Source: Archangium gephyra (GTDB lineage: Bacteria; Myxococcota; Myxococcia; Myxococcales; Myxococcaceae). From it: DNA of 64,000 nucleotides. The stretch's first letter is position 1. Each line of letters begins with the position of its first letter. This document shows positions 34,841-45,008 of the stretch, in pieces. The stretch is from assembly GCF_001027285.1 (NCBI RefSeq), contig NZ_CP011509.1:6968501-7032500 (forward strand). Reading direction: 5' to 3'. Below the pieces are notes generated by a model. That model saw only the letters and a program-made list of their open reading frames with translations. It was not told the DNA's origin and ran no database searches. The position numbers and the translations under genes are program-made.

Positions 34841-35699
34841 CTAGCCCGAGGCAGGGCCCGTCCACAAGCGGGGAGCCGCCTCCACCACCGCGAAGGCCGC
34901 CCCCCGTTGCGGTTGTAGCCCCGATGGCAACAGCTCCAGGCTGGCCCCGAAGGCCCGCAGCATCGACTGGGCGATCGTCAGGCCGAGCCCCGTGCCTCCC
35001 CGCTCGCGGGCCGTGGTGAAGAAGGCGTCGAAGACACGGGCCCGGTTGGACTCGGAGATGCCCTTGCCATCGTCGCGCACCACCACCCGTCCCCTCCCCT
35101 CCCCTTCCACGTCCGCCTCCAGCCGCACGTGCACCCCCTCGCCCCCATGCTGGGAGGCGTTGGTGATGAGCTGCCAGAGGATGTCCTCCAGCACCTCGGC
35201 GGGCAGGCCCAGGACGAGCCCCGCGGGCACGACCCCCACCTCCACGGCCAGCCCCTGAGCCCGGCCCCGCTCGGCCAGGGCCTCCAGCAACGGGGCCACC
35301 GCCGTCCGCGACGGACGGGCCACCAGCGAGTCCGCGCGGGCCAGCTCCAGCAGCCGCTGCACCAGCCGGGTGAGCCGCCGGGCATCCGCGTCGATGTTGG
35401 CGAGGAAGCGCTCGCGTTGCTCGGGGGACATGGCGTCGGCGCTGTCGCGCAGCAGTTCCACCGCGCCCTGGATGAGAGCAGCACCGCGCCCCAGACCCGC
35501 TCGCCCTCGAGCACCGGCAGCACCACCGTGACGCGCATCCCAGTGTCGCGGCTCAAGGAGGCGAGCGATGCGTCCTCGGGATCGGCGAGGCGTCGGCGCA
35601 GGACGCTGCGAGGCTCGCCGCGCAGGGCGCGCTGGACTCCTGGCGGGCCAGCAGCGTGGTCCCCAACCCTATGGAACTGCTGGCCTCCCTGGGCGTCCA
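34841..35699 (-). pseudogene. Truncated, deleted copy of the histidine-kinase gene
   Basis: This segment matches the intact kinase at 43.4-45.0 kb. It keeps a piece of the sensor region (VLRRRLADPEDASLASL), then joins directly to the dimerisation helix (MELLRDSADAMSPEQRER) and the complete ATPase domain (WQLITNASQHGGEG, RDDGKGIS, GGTGLGLTIAQSM). Compared with the intact gene, 331 bases are missing at about 35474, which shifts the frame, and a smaller deletion lies near 35690. The 5' part of the gene is absent. The final ~28 residues (PSGLQPQRGAAFAVVEAAPRLW) differ from those of the intact copy and look like an authentic kinase end, so this may be the original 3' end of the gene. A residual open frame 34841-35461 could still make an ATPase fragment. 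Confidence 0.85.
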
Positions 35700-35736
35700 C
35701 TCCATTTGGCTGAATGGAAATAAGGAAGGTCTTCCC

Positions 35737-37005
35737 TCAATCCTTAATCTCAGCAGAAGCAGGTGCCGAATCTGATGAATCCCTTAGCCGGAGAATCTCG
35801 CGCAACTCTTGCCCATCTCGTTGCGCACGAGTATTCCTGTCGGAAATATCGAACCACTCCTTCAACTCATCGAGGAAAAGCGATTCGGTTTGGGAGCCAG
35901 AGACGACGGGCAGCAACTCGTACTCGATCAAGTGCGCGAGGATCCACGTCATTGCGACTGCATGGGCCTGCTGGCCGAACTCCCTTCTGTATTCACTCAA
36001 CTGTTGATCGAGCACGTTTAGCAGACCCAGAGGGGTTTGGTGCTCCGTTTCGTACTTCTTGGGGAACACTTGCTCCAAGACTTTTTTCAATCGACGGAAG
36101 AGTTCCTCAGCCGCTCTGTGATGGGAATTCCACCGTTCGAATACCGCGTACAGCCGTTCGATCACTTCGCTCCGTTGCACAAACCCACTAACACCGGACC
36201 CAACCGGTGATGCATTCGGCTCAAAGCCTCGAACAACAAATTGTCCCGCCCCACGACCAACTGATAAGAATGCAGCATTAGCGAGGGCTGGAACGGTACG
36301 ATAAGGAAGAAAAATGTCCGTGAGGCAGAGTCGCCCGGAACCAGTAGACCCCAATGGATCCCGGTGCAGTTTGCGCAAATTACAGAAGTGACAGACAGGC
36401 AACAGATTGTAGGGGTGGCACGAGAACTGAGGATAAAGCGATTCCGGCAGGAAATGATCAAGTTCTGTTTGAATCTTGTTCCTATCCTGCGTGTAGTACG
36501 GCCCCTCGTCGCAGACGAAGCAGATCGGTCCACCATTCGTGGCGACGAACTCCCGCAGGAAGTCTTGTGACGAGTAGTTCTTGGCGTCAGAGAAGAAACA
36601 CCCAGGGATCGTGTTGCGGCGGAACTCGATGTAGAACATCCGCAGGAACTCGGCCCCATTCTTTTGCCAGTCTGACGCGCCTTTCTCGTCGAATGGCGTG
36701 ACATCTCCGCGCGCAGTTTTCAGGAATTGGAGCGCCTCGCGTCTCCTTGGCCGCAACCAGAGAAGCTTATCCGCGCGAGTGCCTCCAGCGAATCCTTCAA
36801 GCGCGGCGTGTCGTGTACTACCACGCCAAAGCCAACGAGCGATCTCCTTGCTACGTTGACCATACCTGCGCAGCAGAAACGCCTCGCACCCTGTTTCGGT
36901 GAGCGTTGATTCATGGCTCGCATATCGAAGGAGCGAAAATTGGAGCAGTACAACCTCGCGCAGGTGCTGTTCTGCAGAAGGAGGGAGATAGGCAGAGTGC
37001 AGCAT
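35737..37005 (-). CDS. HNH endonuclease, likely effector of the defense operon
   Basis: A 422-residue protein and the last gene of the operon. A zinc-ribbon HNH core is complete: CFVC (C162, C165), LDHFLPES (D183, H184), HPYNLLPVC (N200, C205) and CNLRKLHRD (C208, H214). The flanking regions are helical and unnamed. HNH proteins of this layout pair with RecF/SbcC-like ATPases in Septu-type defense and retron effector modules; here the ATPase gene lies directly upstream, 2 bases before this ATG. CGGGAGAG provides a ribosome site 8 bases before 37005. With no HsdR in the operon, this is the most likely DNA- or RNA-cutting component. Confidence 0.88.
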   Translation of the reverse strand: MLHSAYLPPSAEQHLREVVLLQFSLLRYASHESTLTETGCEAFLLRRYGQRSKEIARWLWRGSTRHAALEGFAGGTRADKLLWLRPRRREALQFLKTARGDVTPFDEKGASDWQKNGAEFLRMFYIEFRRNTIPGCFFSDAKNYSSQDFLREFVATNGGPICFVCDEGPYYTQDRNKIQTELDHFLPESLYPQFSCHPYNLLPVCHFCNLRKLHRDPLGSTGSGRLCLTDIFLPYRTVPALANAAFLSVGRGAGQFVVRGFEPNASPVGSGVSGFVQRSEVIERLYAVFERWNSHHRAAEELFRRLKKVLEQVFPKKYETEHQTPLGLLNVLDQQLSEYRREFGQQAHAVAMTWILAHLIEYELLPVVSGSQTESLFLDELKEWFDISDRNTRAQRDGQELREILRLRDSSDSAPASAEIKD

Positions 37006-37007
37006 AC

Positions 37008-38531
37008 TCAACTCTCCCGCGGCAGCACTGACCTGAGCCGATAACTCCAATATCCAGGTCCAACTTGACCCTGGAGAACCCTGAGTTGTTTCGTGTTCTC
37101 CTCGGTCGGGTTTTCAAGATAGCGCCGAATGGCTTCGTTGACCCGCTGGATCCCCCTTTCTCCAGAGGCATACGGAGCCTCGAAAACATGCACCAATACG
37201 TCGCTAGGATCAGAGGCCAGAGTCTTAAACGAGGGGGGGTGTGCGAACCGGGTATAGCGCCCCTTTCTCTCAAACACGACCACGTCCTCCCGGGGGACAT
37301 CGGTCAATGTGATGCTTGAGTGAGTGGCCATGAGCACGTGACTATCCTGCTCTGCGAGCACTGCGTTCAACAGGCTCCCGATCCGCCGCTTCCACGAGTC
37401 GTTGAAGTGCACCTCCGGCTCGTCAAGCAGGATGAGTCCCTCCATATGACCGAGCAGCGGGAATAGCGCCATTCGTCCTAGAAAGCTCCTCTCACCGTCG
37501 CTCAACTCGTCGAATAGGAGGAGTGGCGGCCGCGCCCCGCCGTCGTCCTCGGATGATGGCTGTCGAGACAGGAATAGGTTTACCTCTGTTAAGACAGCAT
37601 CTTCTCCTTCAACGGGGTCCATCAATCTATTAAGGCTGCGGAAGAGTTCTAGCGCTCCGGGTGGCTGGCCAGGCAGATCGAGTAATCCTCGTGCAGTGGT
37701 TTGTGGATCCACTCCGAGGTCGAAGACAAGTAGGCGCTCGCTTCCCTGGCGCACGGCTCTCGTACTTCTGCGAGCCAATGTTCGGACGAATTCCATGTCC
37801 TCTTCACGAGTGAGCCCAGTTAGTAAACGGAAGCGCAACGAGAATCCTTGGAGGTCCTCCATGCGCACGGCATCCAGCACGCCCTGAAGGCGGCGCCGCT
37901 TAACGGGACCACCATCAGCTAAATCGGCCAACATACCGCAGAGGGAAACTAGAGGCAGCCTCTTCGTCCGAATGAGTTGAAACCTGCTCCGCTCGCGTGG
38001 ATTGCCCTCAGAGGAAGAACGGCTCGGCGAGACACCGGGAACCTCGCGAAACATTTGCTCCTCCGGTGTCATCCCCTCCGGCAGGGTCGACCGACTACCG
38101 AACTGACTCGCCTCGCGCTCGGTCAATAACTGCCACTCGACCTCGCTGCCCGTTGTGAAGACAATTACTCGTGGAGGCAGAAGCTCGGCGCGCGGGCTAT
38201 CCTCGTGACCATCGACCAAGATCCGAAGCGGTCGCGTTTGGCCTACTTGACCGCCCGCGTCTGGTTCCGGCAGGTTCGACCAAGAGATGCGTGCTGGGAC
38301 ACCACCCAGCTTCATGGTGTATTCAAGCGCGAATGGGAAAGAAACTTGGCGGTCGGCATCGAGTTGCAGCAGCACGTCGACGAGGGCCCGGAGCACCGTT
38401 GATTTCCCGGTGCCATTCACCCCTACTAAGAAGTTGAGGGAGTAGGGTGCTTCTGTCTCGGCAGTATCGAAAACGATGTCGACGTCCCGAAGCACGCGGT
38501 ACTCGCCGATGTAAAAGTTGAGGAGCTTCAT
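37008..38531 (-). CDS. AAA ATPase (OLD/RecF-like), restriction-system associated
   Basis: A 507-residue ATPase with a split ABC-type core: Walker A GVNGTGKST (residues 36-44), signature LSDGERSFL, Walker B GLILLDEPEVHF and the switch histidine in MATHSS. The arms between Walker A and the signature are short and not a long coiled coil, so it is closer to the OLD/AAA_21 group than to SbcC. It opens MKLLNFYIGEYRVLRDVDIVF. The ATG overlaps the stop of the second methylase gene (ATGA), so it is translationally coupled. It probably senses or gates the HNH nuclease encoded next. The open frame upstream of 38531 is non-coding. Confidence 0.92.
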   Translation of the reverse strand: MKLLNFYIGEYRVLRDVDIVFDTAETEAPYSLNFLVGVNGTGKSTVLRALVDVLLQLDADRQVSFPFALEYTMKLGGVPARISWSNLPEPDAGGQVGQTRPLRILVDGHEDSPRAELLPPRVIVFTTGSEVEWQLLTEREASQFGSRSTLPEGMTPEEQMFREVPGVSPSRSSSEGNPRERSRFQLIRTKRLPLVSLCGMLADLADGGPVKRRRLQGVLDAVRMEDLQGFSLRFRLLTGLTREEDMEFVRTLARRSTRAVRQGSERLLVFDLGVDPQTTARGLLDLPGQPPGALELFRSLNRLMDPVEGEDAVLTEVNLFLSRQPSSEDDGGARPPLLLFDELSDGERSFLGRMALFPLLGHMEGLILLDEPEVHFNDSWKRRIGSLLNAVLAEQDSHVLMATHSSITLTDVPREDVVVFERKGRYTRFAHPPSFKTLASDPSDVLVHVFEAPYASGERGIQRVNEAIRRYLENPTEENTKQLRVLQGQVGPGYWSYRLRSVLPRES

Positions 38532-40456
38532 TTGCCGCCCTCGTTCTCGACGCTGTCTTCCTCGAAATTCCACCGGTCACGCTCTGTAACACGGCGGTAA
38601 TACGTCCTAGGCTCTAAGGATTGGCCGTCCGCGATAGAAACCTTGACCACTAGACCCATTCGCTCAAGCAGGCTCAAAGTGGATGCGTTTGAATCTCCGA
38701 CATCGGTGGGGCCGAACCTCGCCGCAGTTCGGTACATTGTGCGAGGTGGGTTCATTGGTTCGATCGTAGTGACCTGCGCTGAAACCACCTCCCATATCCT
38801 GTGCTGCTCCCAGCCCAATCTTCCAAGCAAGGTCAGTTGTTCAAGGCCTCCCTCCCAAAGCGGCTCGGGGTACACGTCTCCTGTTACGGGGGGCCGCTCC
38901 AGCCGACCCATGAGCAGGTGAATTCGTTCGAGCAACTCGCGCTGGTGTCGGCTGATCGCTGCGAGAATGCGAGCTGGAGGTACATCAGCCTGAGTGTCCG
39001 GCTGGACTGTGATGTACCTCTGGGGGCGTAATTCATAGGCATTGGCACGCAGGGCCCTACTGGGAATGGTCACTCCAAGGAGGCGTCCGTCAGCCGAAAT
39101 AACAATAGCTTGGTTCTTTTCTTCGCCACTGTATATGTTTGAGGAACTCAAAGCCGAGGCGCTGTCTCTGGACAGTCGGAGTTCAGCAGAACTCTCTTCC
39201 TCCGGTTCTCCTTCTGAAAGAGGAATGTTCAGGTTAATGTGCTGGCCACGCTCAAGGTGGATCGCCTGCACCCACAGCGATGTCACCCGGCTGCGACTGC
39301 GGAGTTCGACGGTACGGACGGCCCCCCCGTTCACGCCCTCAATAAGGTAACCCAGTGATCTCGATTCTGCCGAAAGGCGTCTGACGCTCAAGATTGGATA
39401 GTCGCCAGCCGGGAACGACGAACTGCCGCTGCCACGGGCTAAAAGCGCATGCTCGATTAGTACGAGATCGTTGGGTTCTCGCGGTCGCTGTGTCAGTTCC
39501 CTGGCTCGACCGGCGCGATACCCGTCATCTTGGAGTTGGAAAAACCACGTCCGATGGCTGTCCTGTGGCTTGAGTCTATCAACGAGAATCAGATGGGTCT
39601 GCGTCAGACTGAACGGCTGGAAGGCATCTCGAGGCAAGGACACGACACCCAACAGTGAGCAGTCGTCCACAAGTTGCTTGCGCAGTACGATCTCAGCACC
39701 GTCCTCCCGGTAAAGAACACCGCTCGGCACAAGGACCGCAGCTCGCCCTCCCTCTCGCAAGCAACGCACAGCTAAGAGCGTCAGAGCAACCTCGCTCCGG
39801 TTCGCGCGGGAGATGCCAAGAGTCCTGAGAACCAGTTCTTCGGATTGTGGGATTCCAAAGGACGGGTTCATGAGGATCCGATCGAAACGCTGGTCCGAGA
39901 GGTTCCCGCCGGGACCGAATGCATCAAGGGCATTGTCTGCCAAGATTCGGATATTCCGGGCGCCGTGGAGTGTTGCATTCGCCAAAGCTAACCGCGCCCA
40001 CTCCACGGAAATGTCGACTCCAATGGTCGCGCCGGAAGCCTCGGAATCCTTCAATCGCTGGACGAGGAACCCGCCGCTGCCACATGAGAGATCAGCGAGG
40101 TCGTGCTCCGCGCGAACGTCGGCCAGCCGTGACATCGTGCGAACAAGGTGCCTCGGTGTCGGGTAGCGGCGGCCAGCGATCATCTCCGTCAGCCAAAAGA
40201 GAACGTGCTCATTTAAAAGCGTAGCTGAGCCACCAACTGCCTGAGCTGCGGCTCGAAGCGAGACAACCAAATCGTCTACCACCAAGTTGTTGCCGCGAGG
40301 ATATCTTGCTTGAAGCATCTCGGGCCCTTGATGAGCTCGACTTTCCATCCGTAACAGAAGCGCTGCAACATGTTCGATGATGGTCAGGTCGTCGGCCACG
40401 CCAACTCGGTCAAATGCCGACCACACCTTCTTCAGTTCGGATTTCACGTCCGACAT
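38528..40456 (-). CDS. Second N6-methylase-like protein with altered catalytic motif
   Basis: A 642-residue protein resembling HsdM, with a SAM-binding motif I (LADLSCGSGGFL, ~121-131) and a motif IV reading NPSF (197-200). The usual motif is NPPF or DPPY; the second proline is replaced by serine. The C-terminal ~300 residues are unlike HsdM and contain a predicted beta/helical region (REPNDLVLIEHALL, YRRVTERDRW) that may be a specificity or interaction domain. It starts 3 bases after the end of the S-subunit gene and overlaps the ATPase gene by 4 bases. It could be a second active methylase, or a degenerate one acting as a modification sensor. The motif change makes the second option worth testing. 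Confidence 0.85.
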   Translation of the reverse strand: MSDVKSELKKVWSAFDRVGVADDLTIIEHVAALLLRMESRAHQGPEMLQARYPRGNNLVVDDLVVSLRAAAQAVGGSATLLNEHVLFWLTEMIAGRRYPTPRHLVRTMSRLADVRAEHDLADLSCGSGGFLVQRLKDSEASGATIGVDISVEWARLALANATLHGARNIRILADNALDAFGPGGNLSDQRFDRILMNPSFGIPQSEELVLRTLGISRANRSEVALTLLAVRCLREGGRAAVLVPSGVLYREDGAEIVLRKQLVDDCSLLGVVSLPRDAFQPFSLTQTHLILVDRLKPQDSHRTWFFQLQDDGYRAGRARELTQRPREPNDLVLIEHALLARGSGSSSFPAGDYPILSVRRLSAESRSLGYLIEGVNGGAVRTVELRSRSRVTSLWVQAIHLERGQHINLNIPLSEGEPEEESSAELRLSRDSASALSSSNIYSGEEKNQAIVISADGRLLGVTIPSRALRANAYELRPQRYITVQPDTQADVPPARILAAISRHQRELLERIHLLMGRLERPPVTGDVYPEPLWEGGLEQLTLLGRLGWEQHRIWEVVSAQVTTIEPMNPPRTMYRTAARFGPTDVGDSNASTLSLLERMGLVVKVSIADGQSLEPRTYYRRVTERDRWNFEEDSVENEGGK

Positions 40457-40459
40457 ACG

Positions 40460-41734
40460 TTAGAGCTCTCCGTGGATGGCTCGCTCCAAGATCGATTGCT
40501 CCAGCTGACCCAACAACGCCTTGTCGACCACATACGATTCGTGGATGTGCCTCAAATTAGTTACGAGATCATCAAGGTATGAGTCAATTGACCGCTGTTC
40601 GGAGCGTGACGGCAACCAAATCTTAAGCTCATTCAAGGTCCGCAAGTTGATGTTACGCAAGGTGGCCCCGGGCGCATTTCGCTCCAGCTCTACACGGTGG
40701 TAGCGCAGTTGCCAGAACAAGAAGCCTGTATCGAGCTGAGCCGTGTCCGGGTTAATACCGACTAGACTATCTGGGAAGCAAGCCTCCATATTGAGGATGC
40801 CGAGCGCCCCAATAGTTGCGGCGATACTAATTACCAAAGTCCCTTTGGGGAACACACGACTCACGGACACACCTTCTGGATTGAGCGTATCCATGGAGTC
40901 GATAATGTACTTGTTGAACTCGCCAGGCAGGTTCTGAATCTGAACCCATGGCATGGTCCCACCGAAGAACTTTGGGTCGTTCCTTGGCCTTGCCGAGAAC
41001 CGTCCTCGCGCGAGAGTGGCGACCTCATGGAGCTGTTTGACTACTCGCTGCTGGGAAATGCGAGGTGCCGCTGCGGGACCAAATATCTCTGCAAGGGCTG
41101 CGGGAAGCACGCGCGCCGTATCGGCATGGATGCGGGCCAAGTACTCCCGAGCCTCACCGATTTCGGTCATGTAGGATGAGACGCGCTCAAGTAATTGACG
41201 CTGGACCGTGAGCGAGCCCGGAACTGGGATGAGGACACTTCGTAAGAAGTCCTCCGGCACACGCTGCTGACCCACTGCACCCTGAAAGTGGTTCATAGCT
41301 TCGCGCCGAAACGACAGTCGCCTCAGGTAGATGTGGATCCAGCCGGGGAGAACATTCTGCCTGGGTCGGAGGACATGGAACTCGGTGGAACCGAAGCCGA
41401 TCCCGTCGAGCAGACCGGTGGCTATCGCGCACTTCCCGTTCTGCATTGAGGGAGTGATCTTGGCGAAGAGGACATCGCCCTCTCGAAAGAAAGTGAAACC
41501 CTTGGCAACCGCCGAGAACGGCCGCACCTCAACAGCTTCGATGGTGCCGCGGACCTCGTCAATGCCCTGCATGGGAAGGTACGACACCAGTGATTCGCCG
41601 GGAAGGTTCAGGCGCGGTGGCCGCCTCGGGTTTATCTCGGTGACTTCCCCGAGCGTGCGCCACTGCCAGCCTGCGGGCAATGGTGCATCCCCAATGCCCG
41701 GGGACTCGCGGCTCTCGAAGCCCTTGTCACTCAC
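40460..41734 (-). CDS. hsdS: Type I restriction-modification specificity subunit
   Basis: A 424-residue protein with two target-recognition domains, at about 20-180 (GWQWRTLGEVTEINPR, FREGDVLFAKITPSMQNGKCAIA) and 235-400 (VATLARGRFSARPRND, FPKGTLVISIAATIGALGI). Each is followed by a helical spacer (LTVQRQLLERVSSYM; SRSEQRSIDSYLDDLV). This is the classic type I S architecture recognising a bipartite site. The ATG overlaps the stop of the methylase gene (ATGA). It would direct the M subunit, and perhaps the second methylase-like protein, to DNA. Confidence 0.95.
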   Translation of the reverse strand: MSDKGFESRESPGIGDAPLPAGWQWRTLGEVTEINPRRPPRLNLPGESLVSYLPMQGIDEVRGTIEAVEVRPFSAVAKGFTFFREGDVLFAKITPSMQNGKCAIATGLLDGIGFGSTEFHVLRPRQNVLPGWIHIYLRRLSFRREAMNHFQGAVGQQRVPEDFLRSVLIPVPGSLTVQRQLLERVSSYMTEIGEAREYLARIHADTARVLPAALAEIFGPAAAPRISQQRVVKQLHEVATLARGRFSARPRNDPKFFGGTMPWVQIQNLPGEFNKYIIDSMDTLNPEGVSVSRVFPKGTLVISIAATIGALGILNMEACFPDSLVGINPDTAQLDTGFLFWQLRYHRVELERNAPGATLRNINLRTLNELKIWLPSRSEQRSIDSYLDDLVTNLRHIHESYVVDKALLGQLEQSILERAIHGEL

Positions 41735-43263
41735 AGCCCAACCCTCGCGCTGAGTTTCTTGTGGAGCCGTTGAATGAGTTGGTGGAGATCACTGGTGCTG
41801 GCGAGCAAACGGGCAGTCAGATCCGCAACGTTGGGGATTTCATCCTGGCTTCGATCCTCAGGCTTTCGAGAGGACAAATCGAAGCCGCGCGCCTCAATCT
41901 CTCGATAGCTCTCGATCCAGCACCACCCAGTGGCTGCAGGCCTCGGGTGCGCACCTCTGCGGTATGAGGCCCAACCATTCCAAGTCGCACGCGCGAGTTC
42001 GAAGTGCTCGTCAGAGAGCGGAGTGTTCTTGTTGAACCCTTTCTGGCCAGGCCGTGCTTCGATGCGCTGGTAGAGAACCTCGCGAGTGGGACCCCCGCGC
42101 TCAAAAAAAAGCAAACTCGTCTTCACGTTTGAGTAGGGCGCGAAGGCACCAGGTGGGAGGCTCACCACCATGAAGAGGTCGTAATTGTTCAGGAGTTCTT
42201 GCCTTGCACGGGCAAAGGCTCCGCCCCGGAACAAAGTCCCCTCGGGCACGACTAGTGCGCAGCGAGCATGACCGGAGCGCTTCAACTTGTTCATGATATG
42301 TTCAAGGAACAAGAGTTCTGTGGCATTTGCTTTTAGCTGGAAGTTTTGTTGGACCCGAATGTTCTCAGTTCCGCCAAATGGGGGATTGCTGAGGACCACG
42401 TCGAACAGCGCAGAGGGCGTCCTGGAATCCTGCTCAAGCGTGTTGCAGCGGCGGATCTGCGGGACCGTAGCGCCGCGAAGAAGCATGTGGACAAGGCCGA
42501 GCAACGCTGGGACCGGCTTCTTCTCATTTCCAAAAAACGTGGGCTGTTGTTGAAGCCGACGCTCATCTTTGGGCGTGCGTGCAGCCTTACGCATGTACTC
42601 AAGCGCCTCGACGAGCAGCCCGCAAGTTCCGCACGCTGGATCGTAGACCGTCTCCCCGATACGCGGCTCGATGACATCGACCATAAAGCGCGCAATTGCA
42701 CGGGGCGTATAGAACTCTCCGGCGAGTTTATTCTCCCGACCGAGCTTCCGCAGCAGTTCCTCGTACACACTTGAGACGGTGTGGATATCGTCCTCGTTCT
42801 CAAAGTGTATGCCGTCGATGATGCTAAGCACCTCTCGGAGGTTCTGGGGCGACGCACAGAGAACGACGGTGCGACCGTTGAAGATGCCCGCAACTACTTG
42901 GTGTTCCGGTGAACCAGCGAGCGAGGCGAGGTAGGGCAAAAGATCGTTCCGCAGATACGACATGAGTTGATCGTCGTTCCACATTGGCGACCCGCGACGT
43001 ACGCCGTCCGCCGCTTTGCGGCCGAGCGCCTTCTCAGTCCAGGCGGACCAACGATACTTGCCGTCGATCAATAATTTAGAGTTCCTATGCGACCTGCGTT
43101 GGCTGCTGCTAGACGCTGGGTCAGGCTCGTCAATGAACTTCAGGAAGAGCAACCAAGTGAGGTGCTCTAGGTACTCCATCGCGCCGCCGCAGTTGTTATC
43201 GCGACGCATGATGTCGCAGGCTCGCCAGATATCGTTGGCGAGCCTCTCTCGCGTCATTGGCAT
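41731..43263 (-). CDS. hsdM: Type I restriction-modification DNA methylase subunit
   Basis: A 510-residue adenine-N6 methyltransferase and the first gene of the operon. The N-terminal helical domain is typical (LANDIWRACDIMRRDNNCGGAMEYLEHLTWLLFLKF). Motif I is VYDPACGTCGLLVEA, with a cysteine in place of the second glycine as in some HsdM proteins, and motif IV is the intact SNPPFGG. It methylates the site chosen by the S subunit. Two ATGs lie at 43263 and 43257, neither with a strong ribosome site. No HsdR gene exists in the island, so classical ATP-dependent translocating restriction is not possible from this operon alone. Confidence 0.95.
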   Translation of the reverse strand: MPMTRERLANDIWRACDIMRRDNNCGGAMEYLEHLTWLLFLKFIDEPDPASSSSQRRSHRNSKLLIDGKYRWSAWTEKALGRKAADGVRRGSPMWNDDQLMSYLRNDLLPYLASLAGSPEHQVVAGIFNGRTVVLCASPQNLREVLSIIDGIHFENEDDIHTVSSVYEELLRKLGRENKLAGEFYTPRAIARFMVDVIEPRIGETVYDPACGTCGLLVEALEYMRKAARTPKDERRLQQQPTFFGNEKKPVPALLGLVHMLLRGATVPQIRRCNTLEQDSRTPSALFDVVLSNPPFGGTENIRVQQNFQLKANATELLFLEHIMNKLKRSGHARCALVVPEGTLFRGGAFARARQELLNNYDLFMVVSLPPGAFAPYSNVKTSLLFFERGGPTREVLYQRIEARPGQKGFNKNTPLSDEHFELARATWNGWASYRRGAHPRPAATGWCWIESYREIEARGFDLSSRKPEDRSQDEIPNVADLTARLLASTSDLHQLIQRLHKKLSARVGL

Positions 43264-43355
43264 TGGGGTGCTGACGAACCTAACCGCATGATGCTGTTCA
43301 GGCAACAACAGAGAGGATCGCACCAAGAAAGAGGCTCACAGAAGCCGTTGAATCG
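43264..43355 (-). promoter_or_regulatory. Leader region of the defense operon
   Basis: The 92 bases between the kinase stop and the methylase start must carry the operon promoter or read-through from the kinase gene. Nothing resembling a strong -35/-10 pair or a regulator gene (such as a C protein) is seen. Confidence 0.35.
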
Positions 43356-45008
43356 CTACTTTCGATGAGGTATTGGTGTCGGGTGGGCTGTGGTCGCCAC
43401 TACCACCGCGAACGCAGTTCCCGTCCCCTCTGCGGGCAACAGCTCCAGGCTGGCCCCGAAGGCCCGCAGCATCGACTGGGCGATCGTCAGGCCGAGCCCC
43501 GTGCCTCCCCGCTCGCGGGCCGTGGTGAAGAAGGCGTCGAAGACACGGGCCCGGTTGGACTCGGAGATGCCCTTGCCATCGTCGCGCACCACCACCCGTC
43601 CCCTCCCCTCCCCTTCCACGTCCGCCTCCAGCCGCACGTGCACCCCCTCGCCCCCATGCTGGGAGGCGTTGGTGATGAGCTGCCAGAGGATGTCCTCCAG
43701 CACCTCGGCGGGCAGGCCCAGGACGAGCCCCGCGGGCACGGCCCCCACCTCCACGGCCAGCCCCTGAGCCCGGCCCCGCTCGGCCAGGGCCTCCAGCAAC
43801 GGGGCCACCGCCGTCCGCGACGGACGGGCCACCAGCGAGTCCGCGCGGGCCAGCTCCAGCAGCCGCTGCACCAGCCGGGTGAGCCGCCGGGCATCCGCGT
43901 CGATGTTGGCGAGGAAGCGCTCGCGCTGCTCGGGGGACATGGCGTCGGCGCTGTCGCGCAGCAGCTCCACCGCGCCCTGGATGGAGGCCAGCGGCGTCTT
44001 GAACTCGTGCGACACGTTGGCCGCGAAGGAGCGGATGTACTGGTTGCGATCCCTCAGCGCCGTGGCCATGCCGGCCAGGGACTCGGAGAGCTCGGCGAGC
44101 TCCTCCACCACCGGGCGCGCCACCGGCTCGAAGCCCTCGGGCGCACTGGCGGCGATGGCCCGCGTCTGCCGCACCAGGGCCCTCACCGGGCGCACCACCA
44201 GCGCCGTCGCGGCCAGCGACATCAACGCCACCACGCCCAGCAGCACCAGCCCGGTGGCCGTGAGGTTCCACCGGTCCGCGTAGAGGGCCTTGGCGAACGT
44301 CATGGGCGTGCGGGAGAGCAGCACCGCGCCCCAGACGCGCTCGCCCTCGAGCACCGGCAACACCACCGTGACGCGCACCCCGGTGTCGCGGCTCAAGGAG
44401 GCGAGCGGTGCGTCGTCGGGATCGGCGAGGCGCCGGCGCAGGACGCTGCGGGGCTCGCCGCGCAGGGCGCGCTGGACCTCCTGCCGGGCCAGCAGCGTGG
44501 TCCCCAGCCCCATGGAGCTGCTGGCCACCACCACCCCCTGGGCGTCCATCACGCGGATGCCCGCCAGCGTGGAGCGCCGCACCTGGGCGAGCAGCGGAGA
44601 GAGCCGCTTGCCAGCCTCGCGCGCACGAGGCTCGGCGGGGATGGCGGAGACGGGGGGCTCCTCCGGCGCGGGCAGCGCCTCGTCCGAGGCCCGGAGCGAG
44701 GGAAGGATGGGCTGCAGGTTCGAGTCCGCGGGCGTGGCGAAGGGCCAGGATGACAGCCGGGTCACGCCATAGTCCTCCGTCCCGACCTTCTCGCGCAGCA
44801 GCTCGCCGTACAGCGAGACGACCACGGTGCCCTGGGCGATGAGCTCGGACTCCGTCTGGCGGATGAGCTGGTTGTCGTAGACGCGGACGAGCGCCATGCC
44901 GAGCAGTGCGATGACGAGGGCACCCAGCCCCACCGCGGCGAAGACCATCCACAGGCGCGGGCGGGCGCGCGGGCGGTCAGGGGAGCGCGAGCCGGTAGCC
45001 AAGGCCAT
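43356..45008 (-). CDS. Membrane sensor histidine kinase (intact copy)
   Basis: A 550-residue kinase. Membrane segment 1 (VFAAVGLGALVIALLGMALV) is followed by a large extracytoplasmic sensor, membrane segment 2 (ATGLVLLGVVALMSLAATALVV), HAMP, HisKA with ANVSHEFKTPLASIQG and an ATPase domain with QLITNASQHGG, RDDGKGIS and GGTGLGLTIAQS. It overlaps the response-regulator gene by 32 bases. Its last ~26 residues (PAEGTGTAFAVVVATTAHPTPIPHRK) and the following DNA are AT-richer than the rest and differ from the partial copy at 34.8 kb. They may therefore derive from the incoming element. Confidence 0.93.
   Translation of the reverse strand: MALATGSRSPDRPRARPRLWMVFAAVGLGALVIALLGMALVRVYDNQLIRQTESELIAQGTVVVSLYGELLREKVGTEDYGVTRLSSWPFATPADSNLQPILPSLRASDEALPAPEEPPVSAIPAEPRAREAGKRLSPLLAQVRRSTLAGIRVMDAQGVVVASSSMGLGTTLLARQEVQRALRGEPRSVLRRRLADPDDAPLASLSRDTGVRVTVVLPVLEGERVWGAVLLSRTPMTFAKALYADRWNLTATGLVLLGVVALMSLAATALVVRPVRALVRQTRAIAASAPEGFEPVARPVVEELAELSESLAGMATALRDRNQYIRSFAANVSHEFKTPLASIQGAVELLRDSADAMSPEQRERFLANIDADARRLTRLVQRLLELARADSLVARPSRTAVAPLLEALAERGRAQGLAVEVGAVPAGLVLGLPAEVLEDILWQLITNASQHGGEGVHVRLEADVEGEGRGRVVVRDDGKGISESNRARVFDAFFTTARERGGTGLGLTIAQSMLRAFGASLELLPAEGTGTAFAVVVATTAHPTPIPHRK
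43435..44548 (-). repeat. Kinase segment duplicated in direct orientation at 34926-35699
   Basis: This part of the intact kinase aligns with the remnant at high nucleotide identity. It is interrupted by a 331-base stretch (about 43984-44314) that is absent from the remnant, and by a smaller gap near 44530. The copies flank the defense island. Confidence 0.85.

Follow-up and report, generated by a model that had tools for sequence, protein, structure and literature searches.

Archangium gephyra carries an operon in which a type-I-like modification module with two different methylases and no HsdR is combined with a PtuAB-like effector pair, and in which the second methylase is degenerate. The operon lies in a 64-kb stretch of DNA (the window) from a host genome of 12.5 Mb assembled as one contig. 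The best explanation, to which we give about an even chance, is that the modification subunits would form an HsdR-less clamp coupled to the effector, with the second methylase (M2) binding while methylating little or not at all. Comparison of the relatives' sequences suggests that the change in the M2 catalytic motif goes with loss of HsdR, in a small sample of lineages that are not fully independent and with one distant possible exception.

The operon and its insertion site

Five genes, all open, tightly packed and on the reverse strand, follow one another in the compact order M1-S-M2-ATPase-HNH. M1 (41731-43326; likely ATG start near 43263) is a canonical HsdM-type N6-adenine methylase with the Pfam domains N6_Mtase and HsdM_N and a phmmer match to 5ybb_A (E 1.9e-173). 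It is followed by S (40460-41734), an HsdS specificity subunit with two target-recognition repeats, matched in two stretches by Pfam Methylase_S, and by M2 (38528-40456), an HsdM-like subunit of 642 aa assigned by N6_Mtase, full-length relatives and fold matches. The N6_Mtase matches of M2 (E 1.5e-29) and M1 (E 3.9e-55) are both well over the cut-off, as HsdM_N and Methylase_S also exceed theirs; HsdM and HsdS are thus encoded together, as in type I restriction-modification (R-M) systems. An HsdR-like helicase-nuclease was found nowhere in the 64-kb window, both flanks of the operon included.

The last two genes encode an OLD/ABC-type ATPase (37008-38573; likely ATG start at 38531, overlapping the M2 stop codon) and an HNH nuclease (35737-37050; likely start at 37005). 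The ATPase matches the PADLOC model PtuA1 (E 2.2e-34) and NCBIfam TIGR04435, the restriction system-associated ATPase (E 1.1e-28), the latter with 100.3 bits, under the curated 300-bit cut-off. The nuclease matches PDC-M01B (E 1e-12) and PtuB (E 4.2e-7) of PADLOC, and PtuB models were matched by all nine HNH relatives. A PtuA-type ATPase therefore adjoins a PtuB-type HNH protein, the arrangement that characterizes Septu-like PtuAB pairs. The Walker A, SDGE, DEPE and H-loop motifs of the ATPase are invariant across the relatives, and so are the HNH residues C177, C180, H199, N215, C220, C223 and N224 in nine relatives; in both cases members without HsdR are included.

On either side of the operon lies one copy of a 549-bp direct repeat that corresponds to the 3' portion of a histidine-kinase gene; the left (34926-35474) and right (43435-43983) copies are 99.5% identical. 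A second repeat stretch, 91% identical, also flanks the operon (flanking regions 34926-35700 and 43435-44548). In two genomes of the same genus the operon is absent, its two sides are contiguous and the kinase is present once. These observations indicate that the operon was most likely a recent gain in this lineage, in which the end of the kinase gene was duplicated. The intact kinase gene now immediately precedes M1 in the same orientation, and the operon may be expressed by read-through from the kinase operon. Elsewhere (L053, 5573-6481, and L054, 5671-6540), the two Pseudomonas operons without HsdR have the same PEP mutase/isocitrate lyase-type gene upstream of them; this site is likely an integration hotspot.

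The second methylase subunit

Motif IV of M2 (aa 197-200; 39857-39868, reverse strand) reads NPSF, encoded by the codons AAC CCG TCC TTT (39868-39857) as N197, P198, S199 and F200, so that Ser199 takes the place of the second proline. Motif I, the SAM-binding DLSCGSGG (aa 122-129; 40070-40093, reverse strand), is intact. Codons and translation thus bear out the original prediction, which had noted NPSF next to an unimpaired motif I and a canonical NPPF in the first methylase; the latter is present in M1 at aa 314-317 (42376-42387, reverse strand). M1 being intact in its sequence, methylation as such is apparently not abandoned in the window.

Motif IV was surveyed in 92 N6_Mtase-core matches across all the DNA surveyed, 89 of them readable and a few of them duplicates. 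NPPF, NPPY or DPPW was found in 79 of the 89 and NPSF in one, a rarity that is more than chance. The M2 motif I residues D122, C125, G126, G128 and G129 are invariant among eight aligned M2 proteins, and the SAM motif and acidic motif II are kept in all M2s compared. A methylase-like protein with HPPM (L069/L147) was excluded as a relative since it sits in an unrelated locus; its neighbours in Ktedonobacter racemifer (L147, 2801-15833) are a caspase-like protein, a second methylase that carries NPPY, and a third protein of large size.

The AlphaFold model of M2 has a mean pLDDT of 66.5, with values mostly of 80-93 in the blocks of the methylase core, and its best fold matches are HsdM structures (2okc, Z 30.8; 7eew, Z 30.5; PacII 7vs4, Z 29.1). 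The C-terminal extension had been described as unlike HsdM, which holds for aa 341-448 (approximately), unstructured in the model, and for aa 533-630, but not for aa 465-525 or so. This last region (38882-39025, reverse strand, for aa ~478-525) matches the HsdM C-terminal helix, forming a second domain in the alignment of the M2 profile to 3lkd, is helical in the models of both the whole protein and the C-terminal part alone, and is presumed to be the contact to S. Residues ~533-630 (38567-38860, reverse strand) form a probable winged-helix domain in the model of that part alone; its top matches are mostly winged helices, but they are weak (best Z 6.8). The C-terminal domains are kept across the relatives despite about 30% identity. 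In the M2 of locus L109 (8395-10572), near-identical short repeats of the EVQ-DGDASAQGT type occupy aa ~425-490, within the disordered region between the methylase and C-terminal domains.

Loss of HsdR and the state of motif IV

The ATPase alignment was used to scan genomes of bacteria and archaea for relatives, and Chloroflexota, Pseudomonas and the phylum to which a planctomycete genome (G199) belongs were targeted in addition. The genomes sampled were 193-195 from the phylum of the window, 400 plus 298 from Chloroflexota, all 47 of one class, 101 of another and 199 from the phylum of G199. The two-methylase kind was rare among them, with nine loci including the window (Herpetosiphon L044, and L046, L047, L048, L049, L107, L108 and L109); the eight M2 relatives all come from Chloroflexota or from searches of Chloroflexota and share the gene order of the window. 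The Herpetosiphon plasmid pHAU02 has the M1-S-M2-ATPase-HNH order with an extra HsdR-like gene upstream, and is the only one of the plasmids searched with a two-methylase operon; a Pantoea plasmid bears the single-methylase kind. The latter, consisting of HsdR, M, S, ATPase and HNH genes, was found in L051, L052, L077, L110, L111, L166 and L167, and without HsdR in the Pseudomonas loci L053 and L054. The viral contigs searched held no full system. Two of these loci are disrupted: a transposase-like gene interrupts M2 in L046 (7339-8313), a locus from an Anaerolineales metagenome-assembled genome that also lacks M1 and the greater part of S, and the methylase gene of the Planctomycetes operon L051 (5573-6757) is interrupted between motif IV and the C-terminal half.

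All five two-methylase loci with HsdR (L044, L047, L048, L107 and L109) have NPPF in M2, whereas the second proline is missing in all four M2s without it: NPSF in the window, APSF in both L049 and L108, and NPAF in the insertion-broken gene of L046. For these nine M2s, with relatedness ignored, Fisher's exact test gives p 0.008. The single-methylase kind divides in the same way, the motif being canonical in 7/7 loci with HsdR and DLPL or DLPH in the two Pseudomonas loci lacking it. HsdR was not found near L046, L049 or L108 when both flanks were searched; a weak helicase-like match 4 kb downstream of L049, on the opposite strand, is by its position no HsdR candidate. A possible exception is L114, a distant TIGR04435 operon with an NPPF methylase, where the search revealed no HsdR belonging to the operon itself, although it has an independent type I system as its neighbour. 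Changes in M1 also occur, with HPPL as its motif IV in L049 and loss of the acidic residue of motif II in L108.

The serine itself is not conserved among homologs, as had been asked at the outset: five of the eight other M2s carry NPPF, and the idea of a family-wide serine was rejected on this count. That homologs would mostly carry NPPF was expected to mark a random loss. The majority was indeed found, but a random single loss is disfavoured because the change tracks the absence of HsdR. The distribution of the proline, lost in every M2 without HsdR and kept in every one with it, speaks for an M2 with weak catalysis or none in the HsdR-less branch. The original prediction had proposed M2 as a possible sensor of the methylation state or a bridge to the ATPase.

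In phylogenetic trees the M1 proteins form one clade (support 100/99) and the M2 proteins another (100/100), so that M2 is an old paralogue and not a recent copy. The pairing of a canonical with a possibly impaired methylase in one operon, as predicted, is thus real, and it is old. On the ATPase tree either trait, HsdR or motif IV, requires four changes, and these coincide; only two independent contrasts fall on well-supported branches, too few for significance. The four M2s from HsdR-less loci, L046 included, group weakly (74/90), and a tree holding the window, L049 and L108 together, without L046, was not rejected (p-AU 0.24). From these results, the proline may have been lost in one event (NPSF/NPAF, later APSF) and independently in Pseudomonas.

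A process of decay would also connect the two traits: HsdR would have been lost when the operon moved, selection for methylation would have relaxed, and M2 would be drifting towards a pseudogene. The youth of the insertion, between nearly identical repeats and absent from other genomes of the genus, fits such a course, as do the very long M1 branches of L049 and L108 and the M2 of L046, already broken by the transposase-like gene. This reading is nevertheless rather improbable, since all five genes of the window are open and closely packed, the catalytic residues of ATPase and HNH are invariant where HsdR is lacking, the SAM motif and C-terminal domains of M2 persist at such low identity, and the proline loss is common to distant members without HsdR.

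A putative clamp, its precedents and its meaning

The closest precedent for the modification subunits is PacII, a non-canonical type I R-M system (M1M2S; PDB 7VRU/7VS4), in which one S holds two different HsdM-type M subunits; M1-S assembles first and recruits M2 (PMC9613975). Like PacII, the window combines a single S with two different M proteins, as seen in the gene order and the two separate clades, and chain A of PacII can be superposed on the M2 model (Z about 29). PacII differs in that its M2 carries NPPY and makes m4C, and HsdR is present (PMC9613975), whereas the window operon has NPSF, an ATPase and an HNH nuclease, and no HsdR. The combination of NPPF in M1 with NPPY in M2 is found neither in the window nor in its HsdR-bearing relatives, where M2 has NPPF. 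M2 was rejected as an m4C subunit of the PacII kind, as its motif is not NPPY and chain A of PacII (NPPF) outscores chain B against its profile.

In PacII M2 the target amino group is contacted by the Asn side chain and the main chain of the first proline, and the aromatic cage around the base includes the second proline, P287; mutants of this pocket reduce m4C while m6A formed by M1 is largely kept (PMC9613975). P287 corresponds to Ser199 of the window M2. By analogy, Ser199 would remove a wall of the cage, and M2 should bind but may transfer methyl groups slowly or not at all. Alternatively, M2 could still be active, M1 and M2 modifying one strand each with the ATPase-HNH pair as a restriction arm replacing HsdR. 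Both amino-group contacts known from PacII (PMC9613975) are present in M2, which retains Asn197, Pro198, Phe200, Tyr98 and the SAM motifs. This alternative is the less probable one, given that the missing proline belongs to the base cage, that the nearest HsdR-less relatives, L049 and L108, have lost the Asn as well, and that NPSF is so rare among methylase cores.

In the preferred explanation, M1, M2 and S would assemble much like PacII M1M2S and hold a bipartite DNA site in an asymmetric clamp. M1 would be competent to methylate one strand, while M2, with its SAM pocket, base-flipping aromatics and S-binding helix, would bind and read its half-site but transfer methyl groups poorly, if at all. 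The clamp, on an unmodified or half-modified target or obstructed by an anti-restriction protein from a phage, would then gate the ATPase according to its state, with no HsdR motor-nuclease involved, and the gated ATPase would license the HNH nuclease, presumably in defence.

Precedents also exist for the effector side. As in Septu, retron-Eco7 and TIGR04435 systems, an ATPase gene precedes an HNH gene and the profiles match; retron-Eco7 PtuAB depletes tRNA-Tyr (PMC11555353). Unlike these, the window ATPase falls below the TIGR04435 cut-off, its HNH protein is longer, and the pair is tied to a type I M/S operon, while Septu occurs alone or with a retron. The latent anticodon nuclease PrrC, a toxic ATPase-nuclease, is encoded alongside the type I complex EcoprrI, which is able to silence it (PMC2610378), but PrrC is a single protein with a different nuclease, and EcoprrI has HsdR. 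OLD-ABC ATPases with HNH partners are known to back up BREX and R-M-like systems as additional effectors (PMC12839542); the same type of dyad adjoins a modification system there, but as an extra layer on a full system, whereas in the window operon it is the sole remaining nuclease. A methylase fold without catalysis, as M2 may be from its sequence, is found in the inactive DAM methylase domain of DndH, proposed to occupy sites (PMC10853773); that domain is, however, part of a large ATPase of phosphorothioation-linked systems, in an unrelated operon. MADS combines the HsdM-like MAD2, the S-like MAD5 and an ATPase, but lacks the layout of two methylases and HNH, and the profile matches of the window are weak: against MAD2 and MAD3, M2 reached 44 of 720 bits and the ATPase 29 of 420 bits. 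Membership in MADS or BREX was rejected, with scores far under the cut-offs.

Tentatively, a branch of type I systems may have dispensed with HsdR and, step by step, with methylation (from NPSF to APSF; in Pseudomonas, DLPL/DLPH). Its M-S complex would have become a DNA sensor that does not methylate and that sets off a nuclease of the PtuAB type; the window would represent an early stage, with one methylase intact and one impaired. If methylase subunits with broken sites survive only without HsdR, the parts of R-M systems would be rewirable into a recognition module for another effector. If so, many proteins annotated as "methylases" in defence islands may have no methylating activity, and operons of this kind would offer a testable case of discrimination between self and non-self with one or no active methylase.
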